Position numbers and translations under genes: made by a program. This document shows positions 3,264 to 21,527 of a DNA stretch of 64,000 nucleotides, piece after piece. A model generated the notes under the pieces. The model was not told where the DNA came from. It searched no databases and saw only the letters and a program-made list of their open reading frames with translations. Source of the stretch: Candidatus Nitrosocosmicus oleophilus (lineage in GTDB: Archaea > Thermoproteota > Nitrososphaeria > Nitrososphaerales > Nitrososphaeraceae); assembly GCF_000802205.1 (NCBI RefSeq), contig NZ_CP012850.1, positions 558,001 through 622,000 on the forward strand, written 5' to 3'. Positions within the stretch are counted from its first letter, which is position 1, and each line of letters opens with the position of its first letter.

Positions 3264-3600
3264 TGATCGAATGTTCTGATCGAAAGACATGATCGAATGG
3301 ACAGCTTTTAATAAATACTTGATCAACAATGTTCTATTTGATAATAATGAAATATAGAAGTAGAACAGAAATAACTGTCTTAATACTAGAAGCAGCAAAC
3401 GGTGGGGCTACAAAGACAAAAATCATGTACAAATCATTCCTTTCATATGCACAGTTAAAAGAATACTTTACAATGCTAATTGAGAATGGTTCGCTAGAAT
3501 ATGAAGCTGGATTGTTGAATATCTATAGAACAACAGAAAAAGGCTTACGACTATTAAAGATATATAATCAGATAGAAGAAATAATACCACAAGTTAATGT
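3264..3600 (+). repeat. Winged-helix cassette copy A (divergent member)
   Basis: The segment from the first GATCGAA box through the 3' end of the winged-helix gene is nearly the same as copies B (4261-4596) and C (5213-5548). It lies in the opposite orientation to both. It matches them from the promoter through about 3489, differs in a short stretch coding for the wing, matches again around the TTEKGLRLLKIYNQIEE segment, and then diverges at the C-terminus. This mosaic suggests gene conversion or an older duplication. Confidence 0.8.
3265..3297 (+). promoter_or_regulatory. Three GATCGAA boxes with 13-bp period (copy A)
   Basis: GATCGAA occurs at 3265-3271, 3278-3284 and 3291-3297, each separated by 6 bp. 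A TATA-like TTTAATAAATA follows at about 3306-3316, ahead of the winged-helix gene. The placement just upstream of the TATA element suggests a binding site for a regulator, possibly the encoded winged-helix protein itself. The same array precedes copies B and C. Confidence 0.55.
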
Positions 3601-3607
3601 AAATTAG
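3347..3607 (+). CDS. Small winged-helix DNA-binding protein, copy A
   Basis: This protein of about 86 residues is of the archaeal ArnR1/HTH_45-like winged-helix type. I choose the ATG at 3347 (MKYRSRTE) rather than 3329, because the diverged paralogue at 20052 begins at exactly this residue and the TATA-like box near 3311 places transcription just before it. The helices ITVLILEAANGG and KTKIMYKSFLSYAQLKEYF form the HTH, and the wing ends with YRTTEKGLRLL. It is likely a transcriptional regulator. It differs from copies B and C in the wing and at the C-terminus (IIPQVNVN). Confidence 0.8.
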   Translation: MKYRSRTEITVLILEAANGGATKTKIMYKSFLSYAQLKEYFTMLIENGSLEYEAGLLNIYRTTEKGLRLLKIYNQIEEIIPQVNVN

Positions 3608-3695
3608 TGACGTTCATTTATTATCATACAGGCAAAACTAAAACTACTAGATTTCTATAAATAATACTTCCTAATTCATTGTCATTATTTTATAT

Positions 3696-4124
3696 TTATT
3701 TAACTACTAGTACCGGAATTTTACTATGATGTAATACTCGGTGAGAAACACTGCCCAGTATGGCGTGTTTAAATTTCCCTCTACCTCTACTCCCTATAAC
3801 AATATAATCAAAATTGTTTTTCTCGATATAATCAATTATTATAGACCCGACATTTTGTCCCTCCAAAAATATGGTTTCAGGCTCTAAACCATAGTTTTTT
3901 ACTCTATTAACAGCATTTTCAAGAACAGTTTTGGCTTCTTTTTCTAGCTCTGCCATTATAGAGTTTACTAGTTTTTGTGATTGAATATAAACGAAAGGAG
4001 GGATTTCAAGTACATATAGGATTATCAATTTTGAGTCTAATTTAGAACTCAAGAAGGAAGCATGATCTAAGGATCTCATTGAATTTTCAGAACCATCCAC
4101 TGGAGCAAGTATTCTGGAATTCAT
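3696..4124 (-). CDS. Universal stress protein (UspA family)
   Basis: This 142-residue single-domain USP starts with ILAPVDGSENS, the nucleotide-contacting first strand and loop. It carries the ATP-binding motif GSRGRG plus GSVSH near the C-terminus (about residues 114-130) and ends in PVLVVK. It therefore belongs to the ATP-binding class. Such proteins form cytosolic dimers linked to stress survival, and the exact role cannot be inferred. It lies between inverted copies A and B of the winged-helix cassette, so recombination between these could flip it. Confidence 0.88.
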   Translation of the reverse strand: MNSRILAPVDGSENSMRSLDHASFLSSKLDSKLIILYVLEIPPFVYIQSQKLVNSIMAELEKEAKTVLENAVNRVKNYGLEPETIFLEGQNVGSIIIDYIEKNNFDYIVIGSRGRGKFKHAILGSVSHRVLHHSKIPVLVVK

Positions 4125-4235
4125 TAGATTATATGAGTGAATTCAATGATATAAATCTAATATTTTAGATATGTTCTTGTACAAAGTAAATGATTTAAAA
4201 AATTATATTTTAGATAGAAAAATTAGAAAAGTATA

Positions 4236-4511
4236 CTAAAAAATGTCTTTATTAGAGGTATTTATTGTGCTTGGGATTAATTCTTCTATCTGATTATATA
4301 TCTTTAATAGTCGTAAGCCTTTTTCTGTTGTTCTATACTTTTGAGTTCCATCTTCATATTCTAACAAAGCATTCTCAATTAGCATTGTAAAGTATTCTTT
4401 TAACTGTGCATATGAAAGGAATGATTTGTACATGATTTTTGTCTTTGTAGCCCCACCGTTTGCTGCTTCTAGTATTAAGACAGTTATTTCTGTTCTACTT
4501 CTATATTTCAT
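4236..4511 (-). CDS. Small winged-helix DNA-binding protein, copy B
   Basis: This is a near-duplicate of copy A, starting at MKYRSRTE (ATG at 4511). The body is the same as copy C. The C-terminal extension (NTSNKDIF) is encoded by flanking DNA, because the repeat boundary falls inside the last codons before a stop. It carries the same promoter and GATCGAA boxes. It is likely a DNA-binding regulator with overlapping or identical specificity to copies A and C. Confidence 0.78.
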   Translation of the reverse strand: MKYRSRTEITVLILEAANGGATKTKIMYKSFLSYAQLKEYFTMLIENALLEYEDGTQKYRTTEKGLRLLKIYNQIEELIPSTINTSNKDIF

Positions 4512-4596
4512 TATTATCAAATAGAACATTGTTGATCAAGTATTTATTAAAAGCTGTCCATTCGATCATGTCTTTCGATCAGAACATTCGATCACA
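4261..4596 (-). repeat. 336-bp winged-helix cassette, copy B
   Basis: By eye this 336-bp stretch is identical to 5213-5548 and in the same orientation. The unit runs from the three GATCGAA boxes through the promoter and nearly all of the winged-helix gene, ending just before its stop codon. The two direct copies flank 4597-5212, so that segment could be lost by recombination. Confidence 0.85.
4561..4593 (-). promoter_or_regulatory. Three GATCGAA boxes with 13-bp period (copy B)
   Basis: TTCGATC on the plus strand occurs at 4561-4567, 4574-4580 and 4587-4593. This is the same array as in copies A and C, positioned upstream of the copy B TATA-like box. Confidence 0.55.
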
Positions 4597-4853
4597 TGAT
4601 TAACATAATAATCTATTCCACAAAAAAATCTGACATTTACTAATATTGAGTCCTTTAAGAATGTAATTGAAAACCTCTATGAATTCTCATTGTTAGGTTA
4701 TTTAGTTATCTAATTACGAATTTTCGAAACCAAGTTTTACCTATTTTACCTGGATATAAGCAATTATTCAATTATATTGAAAACAAATATAGGATATGGT
4801 CTCTAGGGTTCAGGTTACGATAATTATTTAAAATACAATCAGACAATGATCTT

Positions 4854-5156
4854 ATGTCTTATGGGTCTGCTACTCCATCGGAACCTTCAACGAAGAAACT
4901 AGTATTAATTTTTGGTATTATTGCTATAGGTGCATTTATTGTCTTGAGTATTTTTGTATTCCCTGTTAAAAATTTAATCAGAGACGAAGTTACCGCCGAA
5001 GTTAAAATATTAAGCAAAAATGAAGGAATTTGTGTTGTTGATACTACTGATCATCCTAGAGGCATTAATCAATGTCCCTATGAGGTTGGAGATACGGTAA
5101 TAGTAAAATACAAAGAGGGAACTTCAGACATAATAAGTCATGAATTAAAACCCTGA
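4854..5156 (+). CDS. Membrane-anchored small protein, unknown
   Basis: This 100-residue protein has a short polar N-terminus, one transmembrane helix (about residues 14-36) and an outside domain of about 60 residues rich in beta-strand-like stretches. That domain has two cysteines (GICVV and NQCPY) that could pair, and a YEVGDTVIVKYKEG segment resembling a small beta-barrel. I do not recognise a family. It lies between direct copies B and C of the winged-helix cassette. Confidence 0.6.
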   Translation: MSYGSATPSEPSTKKLVLIFGIIAIGAFIVLSIFVFPVKNLIRDEVTAEVKILSKNEGICVVDTTDHPRGINQCPYEVGDTVIVKYKEGTSDIISHELKP

Positions 5157-5208
5157 AAATAAATAATTATGTTGTACAGGTTTAGTTATTTGGGTTGAAT
5201 TAAAGAAA

Positions 5209-5463
5209 TTATTTTATTGTGCTTGGGATTAATTCTTCTATCTGATTATATATCTTTAATAGTCGTAAGCCTTTTTCTGTTGTTCTATACTTTTGAGTTC
5301 CATCTTCATATTCTAACAAAGCATTCTCAATTAGCATTGTAAAGTATTCTTTTAACTGTGCATATGAAAGGAATGATTTGTACATGATTTTTGTCTTTGT
5401 AGCCCCACCGTTTGCTGCTTCTAGTATTAAGACAGTTATTTCTGTTCTACTTCTATATTTCAT
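5209..5463 (-). CDS. Small winged-helix DNA-binding protein, copy C
   Basis: This is the third copy of the winged-helix gene, starting at MKYRSRTE (ATG at 5463). It is identical to copy B up to the end of the repeat and terminates right after it (IPSTIK) using a stop codon from flanking DNA. Its upstream boxes extend to the last bases of cdc6. The proximity to cdc6 and the origin is suggestive but does not prove a role in replication. Confidence 0.78.
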   Translation of the reverse strand: MKYRSRTEITVLILEAANGGATKTKIMYKSFLSYAQLKEYFTMLIENALLEYEDGTQKYRTTEKGLRLLKIYNQIEELIPSTIK

Positions 5464-5548
5464 TATTATCAAATAGAACATTGTTGATCAAGTATTTATT
5501 AAAAGCTGTCCATTCGATCATGTCTTTCGATCAGAACATTCGATCACA
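5213..5548 (-). repeat. 336-bp winged-helix cassette, copy C
   Basis: This copy is identical by eye to 4261-4596. Its outer edge overlaps the stop codon of cdc6 (5544-5546), so the cassette abuts the 3' end of cdc6 exactly. Confidence 0.85.
5513..5545 (-). promoter_or_regulatory. Three GATCGAA boxes with 13-bp period (copy C)
   Basis: TTCGATC on the plus strand occurs at 5513-5519, 5526-5532 and 5539-5545. The outermost box overlaps the end of the cdc6 coding sequence. Confidence 0.55.
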
Positions 5549-6761
5549 ACAACATGGATAAAAAATTATCATCCTTTAGCGCTTTGGATACAGTATCAGA
5601 AGAAACAGCCATTTTGATTATTTGAGAACGGCCATACCTACCATGGCTAACGACGTTTGAGGTAATTAATCCAAGTTGGTCTAATTCACTAATTATTTGA
5701 GTAACTCTTCTTTGGGTCAGAGCATCATGTTCAATTTGTTTACATAATGAAGTATAGATATCATAAACATCTCCGGTCATACCAGTTTGAGATTTCATGA
5801 CAGATAGAACAATCAATTTTGTATGTGTTGTGGAATTTTTGATAACCTCATAATTGGTGTCTTTTTCAATCTTTTCTTGTGCTTCTCGTATATGATTTTC
5901 AGTAACCATATCTGCCCTTTCTCTTTCCGCTATTTCAGCAGCTACTCTTAATAAATCAATTGCCTTTCTAGCATCCCCATTTTCCTTCCCGGCCACTGCT
6001 GCACACAAATTAATCGCGGCCTGACCAATGGATCCCTCATTAAATGCTAGTTTTGATCGGTCATTTAGGATTTCTTTTAGTTGAATTATTGTGTATGGAT
6101 TAAATATTATTTCCTCCTCACTTAGACTACTTCTAACTCTCGGGTCTAGTTTGTCTTTAAACGTAAGACTATTAGATATTCCTATTAAAGATACAAATCC
6201 ATCTCCCAGCATACGTTCATTTGCTCTAGTAAAGTTATATAAAACATCATCTCCGTTCCTATCAACCAAAGAATCAATCTCATCAATAATCAATACTACA
6301 TGAAGATTATTTTTTTTCAAATATTCAAGGATCCTATCAGTGGCTTCGCCCATAGACAAACCAGTAAAATGGACTTTTAATTTCTTGTCGAAGCGATTAA
6401 TCCCTATATCCTCCGCAATATCATATAACACCTTGTAAGAAGTATTTGAAGTCTTTGCGTTAATAATAGTAACGGTAATTTCTATTCCATGTTCTATTGA
6501 TTTTTTTTTTAATCTAGTAATTACATTTTTTACAACGGCAGTTTTCCCTGTTCCAGGTTTTCCAAAAACTAAGAGATTAGAAGGTCTACCATTCTTTAAT
6601 ACGACTGATAGTACTTGTGCGATTGTTTTAGACTCTTCATCTCTAAATGGCAATTTTTCAGGAACGTAATCAATTGTTAATGTTTTTCTATTTTTAATTA
6701 AATTGGCTCCAATAACAGCCTTATCAAATATATTATCTAAATAATCTGAATCCATCATCAT
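5544..6761 (-). CDS. cdc6: Orc1/Cdc6 replication initiator
   Basis: This 405-residue AAA+ protein has Walker A GKPGTGKTAV (about 67-76), Walker B LIIDEID (about 157-163), a sensor-1 GISNS, and a C-terminal winged-helix region (about 310-405) that binds origin DNA. Archaeal Orc1/Cdc6 recognises ORB elements and loads MCM. ORB-like repeats lie immediately upstream, which is the usual layout. The gene begins with three Met codons (6761, 6758, 6755); I use the first. The 3' end is joined to copy C of the winged-helix cassette. Confidence 0.95.
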   Translation of the reverse strand: MMMDSDYLDNIFDKAVIGANLIKNRKTLTIDYVPEKLPFRDEESKTIAQVLSVVLKNGRPSNLLVFGKPGTGKTAVVKNVITRLKKKSIEHGIEITVTIINAKTSNTSYKVLYDIAEDIGINRFDKKLKVHFTGLSMGEATDRILEYLKKNNLHVVLIIDEIDSLVDRNGDDVLYNFTRANERMLGDGFVSLIGISNSLTFKDKLDPRVRSSLSEEEIIFNPYTIIQLKEILNDRSKLAFNEGSIGQAAINLCAAVAGKENGDARKAIDLLRVAAEIAERERADMVTENHIREAQEKIEKDTNYEVIKNSTTHTKLIVLSVMKSQTGMTGDVYDIYTSLCKQIEHDALTQRRVTQIISELDQLGLITSNVVSHGRYGRSQIIKMAVSSDTVSKALKDDNFLSMLL

Positions 6762-7021: not shown

Positions 7022-7060
7022 TGATAATAAACGTGAATTAACCCCTTTATTTCCACTGGA
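7022..7060 (-). repeat. ORB-like origin element 1 (39-bp direct repeat)
   Basis: This is the first of two perfect 39-bp direct repeats. The ORB core and G-run lie at 7041-7060, read on the minus strand. Orc1/Cdc6 is expected to bind here. Confidence 0.8.
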
Positions 7061-7082
7061 GGAATTTTAAATTCATTAACAA

Positions 7083-7121
7083 TGATAATAAACGTGAATT
7101 AACCCCTTTATTTCCACTGGA
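7083..7121 (-). repeat. ORB-like origin element 2 (39-bp direct repeat)
   Basis: This is the second copy, offset by 61 bp from the first and in the same orientation. Exact conservation over 39 bp indicates recent duplication or strong constraint. Confidence 0.8.
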
Positions 7122-20051: not shown

Positions 20052-20309
20052 GTGAAATATAGAAGTCGAACTGAAATAGTGGCCATGATCCTGGATGCAG
20101 CCAACGGCGGAGCAACCAAAACAAAAATCATGTATAAAGCATTTTTAAGTTATGCCCAGTTACGTGAATATTTATCAGTATTAATTGAAAATAATCTAAT
20201 CGAATATGTTGAGGGTTCACAAACCTACAAAACCACCGAAAAAGGCTTAAACTTTCTTAAAATGCACAATGAAATTGGAGAACTCTTAAGTTCAACTACA
20301 CAAAAGTAA
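20052..20309 (+). CDS. Small winged-helix DNA-binding protein, divergent paralogue
   Basis: This 85-residue relative of the three cassette proteins at 3.3-5.5 kb has a GTG start (MKYRSRTEIVAMILDAANGG). It keeps the same fold elements (GATKTKIMYKAFLSYAQLREY, YKTTEKGLNFL) with many substitutions. The GATCGAA boxes are absent upstream, so its control differs. It helps fix the true start of the cassette copies. Confidence 0.8.
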   Translation: MKYRSRTEIVAMILDAANGGATKTKIMYKAFLSYAQLREYLSVLIENNLIEYVEGSQTYKTTEKGLNFLKMHNEIGELLSSTTQK

Positions 20310-20373
20310 AACAACTTTTTAAATTTTTATAAATTCTTGTAATTTATGATTTTTTTAATAAATTTTACAAGTG

Positions 20374-20461
<88 letters not shown>

Positions 20462-20544
20462 TAAAGAGTGAAGGAAATCAAAAATAACTATGGTTTTCTA
20501 CCACCTACTGCATATTTCAGATCTTTTTTGTTATTTTGTACTCA

Positions 20545-21423
20545 TTAATTATTTGTAGCCATTATATGGCTGGATTCGTTGTTTTCTATATTATTTCCTA
20601 ACGACGCTTCCACATAGTTAGTTACTTCATTGGTAGAACTTTCAGCGCCTTCTGCATTTGATCCCACTTCTTGTTGTTCCTGGTCTTGTTGAATCCCTTG
20701 ATTATAATTCGTATCTTGTTCCGATTCTTGGGTTAGCTTTTGAATATTATAATCTAATACCTCTTCTTTATCTTCATTTTGGACGTTTAATTGATCATTC
20801 TTGATTTCGTTGTTGTTTGAGGTAGCTGTGTTGTCTACTGTTTGTTGTGTAAGCTTGTTAATTATGTTGTTTATTTCTGTTTTTTCTAAGTTGACATGTT
20901 CTATTAATTCATTAGTGTGTATAGTTATCTGCTGATAAATATCTTCTGTTATTTCGTTACTCTTATATTGTAACTTTGCATCAAATAAAACTGCTTTTAT
21001 TCTTTTCGATTCCATATCTATTTCAGATATTCTTTGATGAAGTCTCTCGATAATCTCTTTGGTGTTTTCGCCTAAATCATCCAACCTTTTTTCATACTTT
21101 AAGTATACCAATTCTGCATCGTCTTTCATATTGTCGTTATCAGCTACGATTTCTTGCAAAGCTTTAATCCTCTTCAATGTCAAAGATTTTTCTCGCAAGA
21201 GCTTTTGTGCATCCAATCGCCACCTCGGAATAAAAATGACATAGTCGCCTTGTACCAACAGTTGTTCATAAGGTAAATTTTTTATACCACTTGATCCACA
21301 GTCTACACTTACGGATTCTATAGATCCTTCTATATCTGTGATGATACCTACAACTTTTCCAATGAATGTTCCATACATGTCTTTAACTTTTTTACTGACA
21401 AATTCGAGCTTCAATTCGCTCAT
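20545..21423 (-). CDS. cdvA: CdvA-like cell division protein
   Basis: This protein of about 292 residues has an N-terminal PRC-barrel-like domain (about 1-75, MSELKLEFVSKKVKDMYGTF, VSVDCGS, YVIFIPRWRLD), a long coiled coil (about 80-200), and a polar acidic tail rich in Asn and Gln. This is the architecture of CdvA, the archaeal factor that marks the division site and recruits the ESCRT-III homologue CdvB. I start at the ATG at 21423 rather than 21432. cdvB and cdvC are not adjacent; from general knowledge, cdv genes are dispersed in this phylum. Confidence 0.88.
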   Translation of the reverse strand: MSELKLEFVSKKVKDMYGTFIGKVVGIITDIEGSIESVSVDCGSSGIKNLPYEQLLVQGDYVIFIPRWRLDAQKLLREKSLTLKRIKALQEIVADNDNMKDDAELVYLKYEKRLDDLGENTKEIIERLHQRISEIDMESKRIKAVLFDAKLQYKSNEITEDIYQQITIHTNELIEHVNLEKTEINNIINKLTQQTVDNTATSNNNEIKNDQLNVQNEDKEEVLDYNIQKLTQESEQDTNYNQGIQQDQEQQEVGSNAEGAESSTNEVTNYVEASLGNNIENNESSHIMATNN

Positions 21424-21527
21424 GCAATTCAATTTGTAGATGAGTATAATGCTCGCTGTGTGAAAAAGATTTTATAATATTGTAAGATTTAATCAACTTA
21501 AGTACAATTACATGTATACAATAAACT

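Follow-up and report, generated by a model that had tools for sequence, protein, structure and literature searches.

Introduction

Concertedly evolving genes of prokaryotes include tuf and the rRNA genes. Copy-dependent repair has been proposed for the inverted and direct repeats of plastids (PMC6590440). The Sso10a proteins characterised so far act as architectural chromatin proteins that bend, bridge or coat DNA and form filaments (PMC4941522). Archaeal activators bind upstream of BRE/TATA, and repressors downstream (PMC4158304). The Sulfolobus protein UBP binds a motif different from the one described here and is not called an Sso10a protein in its description, where the term is absent (PMC12141716).

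Here, we analysed a stretch of 64,000 nucleotides (hereafter the window; G000:C1:558001-622000) from the single-contig, 3.43-Mb genome of Candidatus Nitrosocosmicus oleophilus (G000). A sequence-only reading of this DNA had described what looked like a winged-helix regulator gene copied together with its own operator. Our literature search, which was of incomplete coverage, found no paper describing this cassette locus.

Results and discussion

Positions 3264–5548 hold three copies of a unit of ~336 bp, with a P-II gene on one side and orc1/cdc6 on the other (Table 1). Copies B (4261–4596, minus strand) and C (5213–5548, minus strand) are 100% identical across 336 bp, and copy A (3264–3589, plus strand) is inverted and 96% identical to them. 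In each unit, three TGATCGAA boxes repeat every 13 bp ahead of a TATA box and an ORF of 84–91 aa; the left edge of the unit is sharp and coincides exactly with the box array. Copy A is a mosaic whose ORF is identical to that of C over roughly its initial 140 nt and then has a different wing and tail, and the C-terminus differs in each of the three copies. Alignment, Pfam and the box positions thus bear out what had been read from the letters, namely three units of about 336 bp with boxes, TATA box and winged-helix gene, two of them identical and direct and one an inverted mosaic, each ending differently, together with a diverged paralogue at 20052 that lacks the boxes. The cassette ORF probably starts at the second ATG (MKYRSRTE...) rather than at the listed MFYLII... 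start, because outgroup copies are without the upstream ATG.

Table 1. Positions of the cassette copies and associated features in the window
Feature	Position	Strand	Description
Copy A	3264..3607	+	boxes 3264-3271, 3277-3284, 3290-3297; TATA about 3307-3317
Copy A ORF	3347-3607	+	Sso10a-family, 86 aa; A-specific wing (GLLNIYR type) and tail
Universal stress protein (usp) gene	3696..4124	-	separates inverted copies A and B
Copy B	4236..4594	-	boxes 4587-4594, 4574-4581, 4561-4568; TATA about 4541-4551
Copy B ORF	4511-4236	-	91 aa, tail STINTSNKDIF
Small conserved ORF	4854..5156	+	100 aa, between B and C
Copy C	5209..5546	-	boxes 5539-5546, 5526-5533, 5513-5520; TATA about 5493-5503
Copy C ORF	5463-5209	-	84 aa, tail STIK
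orc1/cdc6	5544..6761	-	TGA stop = TGA of outermost copy C box
ORB pair	7042-7059 and 7103-7120	-	exact CCAGTGGAAATAAAGGGG; probable replication origin
wH4 (fourth paralogue)	20052..20309	+	single copy, adjoins acetyl-CoA synthetase and cdvA genes

The cdc6 stop codon (5544–5546) coincides with the TGA of the outermost copy C box. Other species have some 20–40 bp between the end of cdc6 and the array, which suggests that a small deletion may have joined stop codon and box here. The small ORF between B and C had no Pfam match, and an Rfam scan of window positions 1–24000 gave no match.

The cassette ORF matched Pfam HTH_45 with 73.4 bits (gathering cut-off, 25.5), and phmmer aligned its product with 1r7j (E = 1.2e-8). 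The predicted structure, modelled as a monomer (pLDDT 86.7), had Sso10a 1r7j as its best PDB match (E = 2.1e-6, TM 0.84), and the top five Foldseek matches were all Sso10a. The modelled secondary structure (H6-17, H23-30, H34-46, two strands, H63-78) corresponds to a winged helix with a C-terminal helix. By sequence and predicted fold, therefore, the cassette protein belongs to the Sso10a family. The genome contains 15 HTH_45 matches, 11 of which exceed the Pfam cut-off, and no box array was found upstream of wH4 or the other paralogues. In the region 20052–21432, wH4 has the acetyl-CoA synthetase and cdvA genes on its two sides, and linkage to the former recurred in several of the family members checked. 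In another genome (G022), five dispersed HTH_45 paralogues (L133, L149, L276–L278) share a different, conserved stretch upstream, about AATGATnACTTCTAAGATCA, and are likewise without the box array.

We investigated the distribution of the boxes by genome-wide tests, which consisted of pattern searches and family searches. Box starts are 13 bp apart in all three copies, and no perfect 13-bp-spaced box pair was found elsewhere in the 3.43-Mb genome. Across 25 genomes, 56 of the 57 tandem pairs (TGATCGAN6TGATCGA) fell either in cassettes or in a homologous array on the outgroup-like contig G009:C53, and a reversed-pattern control gave 0 matches. In two further genera, members of this gene subfamily are preceded by arrays of 3–7 units whose spacers differ in sequence. 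The position of the array is also regular: in Nitrosocosmicus it ends about 10 bp upstream of TATA, and 56 bp separate its last GATC from the start codon (except in the indel-bearing copy B of G005), and in the two other genera the last GATC lies 49–52 bp before the ATG. Triple-box matches in bacteria look like chance or unrelated coding repeats and were set aside. Contig G009:C53 (L089) carries a second cdc6, 72% identical, with a 7-unit array like that of genus g10, and is probably MAG contamination. A tRNA-like sequence that ARAGORN did not call, possibly an intron-containing tRNA, lies beside the array in L089 and in L091 (8245–8350).

Because the boxes are nearly confined to these promoters and lie just upstream of TATA, self-regulation is the best reading: the cassette protein likely regulates its own genes through the boxes, with activation probable. 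The earlier idea of a regulator copied with its operator fits these observations; the words "amplified" and "moves" are misleading. It is possible, but in our judgement unlikely, that a different regulator binds the boxes and coordinates the three genes while the cassette protein serves as a general chromatin protein. The 15 HTH_45 matches could supply such a regulator, and bending, bridging or coating of DNA is what has been reported for characterised Sso10a proteins. However, the array is restricted to the promoters of the cassette gene across genera, and a separate regulator devoted to one gene would be less economical than self-regulation.

The nearness to a replication origin that the sequence-only reading had named is supported by cdc6 and, upstream of this gene, two exact ORBs, CCAGTGGAAATAAAGGGG. 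These are the only matches in the genome with fewer than three mismatches, and most relatives examined have ORB-core motifs near cdc6. From the position of the ORB pair, the origin is therefore probably 1.5–4 kb from the cassettes. GC skew, sampled coarsely in 20 blocks of 20 kb, gave no clear pattern. The boxes themselves do not qualify as ORBs: the TGATCGAA arrays fail to match the ORB core CCAGTGGAAATNAAGGGG, and the ORBs sit at 7042–7120. The cassette is also linked with cdc6 in G023, at 2.2 kb, and in G015, at about 6 kb.

Such linkage, together with the fixed association with cdc6 and the ORBs in the genus, would suit an origin-proximal nucleoprotein organiser or centromere-like site formed by arrays and protein, with a logic comparable to that of archaeal AspA/ParB or origin-bound chromatin proteins. 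The tandem sites and an Sso10a fold able to bridge DNA point the same way, as does a weak fold match to the pNOB8 centromere-binding protein 4rs8, but many winged-helix proteins match at the level of 4rs8. Moreover, the arrays keep a constant promoter position, as an operator would, and no ParA/SegA-type ATPase is near. A partition (parABS/segAB) site was rejected, as ParA/SegA matches lie at 0.84, 1.34, 1.62, 2.59 and 2.99 Mb (the nearest being 0.84 Mb) and none near 0.56 Mb. We thus regard the organiser as rather improbable, and slightly more so a version in which an origin-bound complex would bridge the arrays and help to organise, time or segregate the origin while gene conversion keeps the sites matched. 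Self-regulation remains our preferred reading of the arrays.

We compared the locus across Nitrosocosmicus. The order cdc6–C–ORF–B–usp–A (inverted), with the same orientation, was found in all six genomes with an intact locus (G000, G003, G005, G007, G008 and G010, of which G000, G005 and G007 are single-contig); contigs of the remaining assemblies break at the repeats. Searching relatives for the unit, the array and the copy number, as the sequence-only reading had proposed, thus gave three copies in the same places in 6/6 intact loci. The small ORF was not detected in G005, and G008 differs in the placement of the segment from P-II to GlcT. Each position retains its own tail: A has ..IIPQ.. 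or a similar sequence, B is extended by 7 aa with a final F, and C has ..TIK. The A-specific wing is present in five of the six species. This conserved arrangement indicates that the triplication is immobile and no younger than the sampled genus: it predates the sampled Nitrosocosmicus radiation and is fixed beside orc1/cdc6.

Several assemblies depart from this picture in detail. In G012, a MAG in which a misjoin is possible at the A/B junction, the A flank is joined to the B tail and usp (apparently inverted), as an A/B inversion would give. A contig of G013 (L086:4800-10100) is scrambled, with repeated cdc6 pieces and junctions mostly in cassettes; it is probably an assembly artefact, and its evidence was set aside. 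Pseudogenisation of G005 copy B was considered and rejected, since its ORF differs from that of C by small indels, some of which (several) fall in homopolymers, and for which sequencing error is equally likely. This copy (L082:5857-6125) and L086:9382-9483 apparently carry the same 2-bp deletion in ATCATGTACAAATC, which may be a shared sequencing error in the motif context or real decay. The Cdc6 proteins of G014:C96 and of the window share 98% identity.

Within a genome, the ~330-bp cores of the copies average 95.3% identity (B/C, 98.6%), compared with 89.7% for the same position between species. Flanks reverse the pattern (35–36% within and 47–60% between genomes). In likelihood trees most copies cluster by genome, the exception being the A copies of the sisters G000 and G010, which pair together. 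AU tests rejected position clades for A, B and C (p-AU = 8.8e-5, 6.7e-4 and 4e-92) and also when only B/C copies were included (p = 2.6e-8). In each of the five genomes for which B and C were compared, the 80 codons examined were free of synonymous differences. Additionally, copy A of G010 contains 24 bp (at most 35) with 11 wH4-diagnostic bases, bounded by C-type bases on both sides; from its diagnostic bases, this tract is an ectopic conversion whose donor type is the wH4 orthologue ~17 kb away. In these comparisons, the near-identity of the copies is a product of recurrent gene conversion, that is, of concerted evolution.

The unit also changes slowly at synonymous sites. Among the six species, its mean synonymous codon difference was 0.204, compared with 0.394 for wH4, 0.467 for cdc6 and 0.36–0.52 in six neighbouring genes (permutation p <= 4e-4). 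By this measure, synonymous change in the unit runs at about half the rate seen in the neighbouring genes and in the single-copy wH4. The effect is most marked in the 5' half (0.117 vs 0.288). In the single-copy control, which is one pair of incomplete MAG contigs from outgroups (L089/L091) with one box-bearing copy found in each, the unit differed by 0.205 and cdc6 by 0.202, without an overall slowing; the 5' half was still low, a hint of the same gradient in small numbers (4/38 vs 12/40 in the 3' half). Given the 5' bias and this hint in the single-copy pair, DNA-level constraint rather than copy correction may account for part of the slowing.

The 5'-biased conservation could also be taken to mean that a DNA-level function within the ORF, or strong codon selection linked to expression, lowers synonymous divergence, and that selection rather than conversion maintains homogeneity. 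We find this improbable, because codon usage of the unit is ordinary (score 0.672 vs 0.63–0.72 in neighbours), and because identity within genomes alongside differences between species, as well as the wH4 tract in G010, would be left unexplained. Gene conversion remains the better account, and the slow synonymous change fits copy-dependent correction, the mechanism here being one that we infer.

The earlier suggestion of amplification and movement was misleading, as the copies keep fixed genus-wide positions and owe their near-identity to recurrent conversion rather than to transposition or a recent amplification. A mobile or recently amplified selfish unit might be seen in the sharp left edge at the array, the several near-identical copies and the contig ends of G017, several of which fall at the cassette gene and suggest copies elsewhere; it is nevertheless very improbable, as positions and orientation are constant in the genus and flanks and C-termini are position-specific. 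A transposable element was rejected for the same fixity and, in agreement with the sequence-only reading, no terminal repeats were seen at the cassettes and no transposase among the locus proteins scanned. An assembly duplication, which that reading had raised against itself, is excluded for practical purposes: some MAG contigs (G013, perhaps also G012) show rearrangements at the repeats, but three copies, with flanks unrelated to one another, recur in the single-contig G000, G005 and G007 and in several independent assemblies, which share the layout with species-specific sequences.

Taken as a whole, the locus is probably best explained as an old, fixed triplication, subject to gene conversion and copy correction, whose genes share self-regulation through the arrays. 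Homologous recombination would use the other copies as templates, resulting in copy-dependent correction, and the inverted pair could also cross over. The ~10-kDa product, presumably dimeric, would recognise the TGATCGAA array immediately upstream of BRE/TATA and regulate its three genes jointly, an activator or level-setting autoregulator being its most likely role. Identical promoters and boxes read by one protein would hold the three genes under one control, so that they act as one. Origin-linked triple dosage may raise the supply of the cassette protein, and gene conversion would keep the protein matched to its array within a species.

On this archaeal chromosome, concerted evolution extends over the genes of a candidate regulator as well as its putative operators, in a compact natural case where a conversion tract can be read and the slowing of synonymous change can be measured. 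This opens a way to test in archaea the copy-dependent correction that has been considered for plastids. The locus also directs attention to an unstudied candidate regulator of Sso10a type in soil ammonia oxidisers, encoded close to their probable replication origin.

Relation to known systems

The cassette protein shares its size and fold (TM 0.84 to 1r7j) with Sso10a (HTH_45, PF14947; PDB 1r7j, 1xsx, 4hw0). Both have a winged helix and a C-terminal helix, which in Sso10a bears the coiled coil of an antiparallel dimer, whereas the cassette protein and its C-terminal helix are shorter in the model. Unlike those of Sso10a, the cassette genes are triplicated, kept identical and equipped with tandem boxes at the promoter; we know of no comparable box array for Sulfolobus Sso10a. 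WhiP/oriC3 and UBP/ucm of Sulfolobus likewise link a small DNA-binding protein with an origin (PMC12141716), but the cassette boxes lie in promoters beyond cdc6, outside the ORB region. At the activator promoters of Ptr2, TFB-RF1 and TrmBL1, sites are also directly upstream of BRE/TATA (PMC4158304); the cassettes differ in having 3–7 tandem direct 13-bp units, and their regulator is putative.

As in plastid copy-dependent repair (PMC6590440), duplicated segments appear to be homogenised by recombination with a lowered synonymous rate, and inverted and direct copies are common to both, as may be inversions between the inverted ones. In contrast to plastid repeats, the cassettes belong to an archaeal chromosome, are only ~336 bp long, exist in three copies and show a ~2-fold effect. 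Their paralogues are closer within than between species, as in tuf and rRNA genes, but here the gene encodes a small DNA-binding protein and the regulatory array is inside the homogenised tract. The locus combines features that are each familiar, namely a gene of Sso10a type, tandem sites close to the promoter, and concerted evolution accompanied by a lowered synonymous rate.
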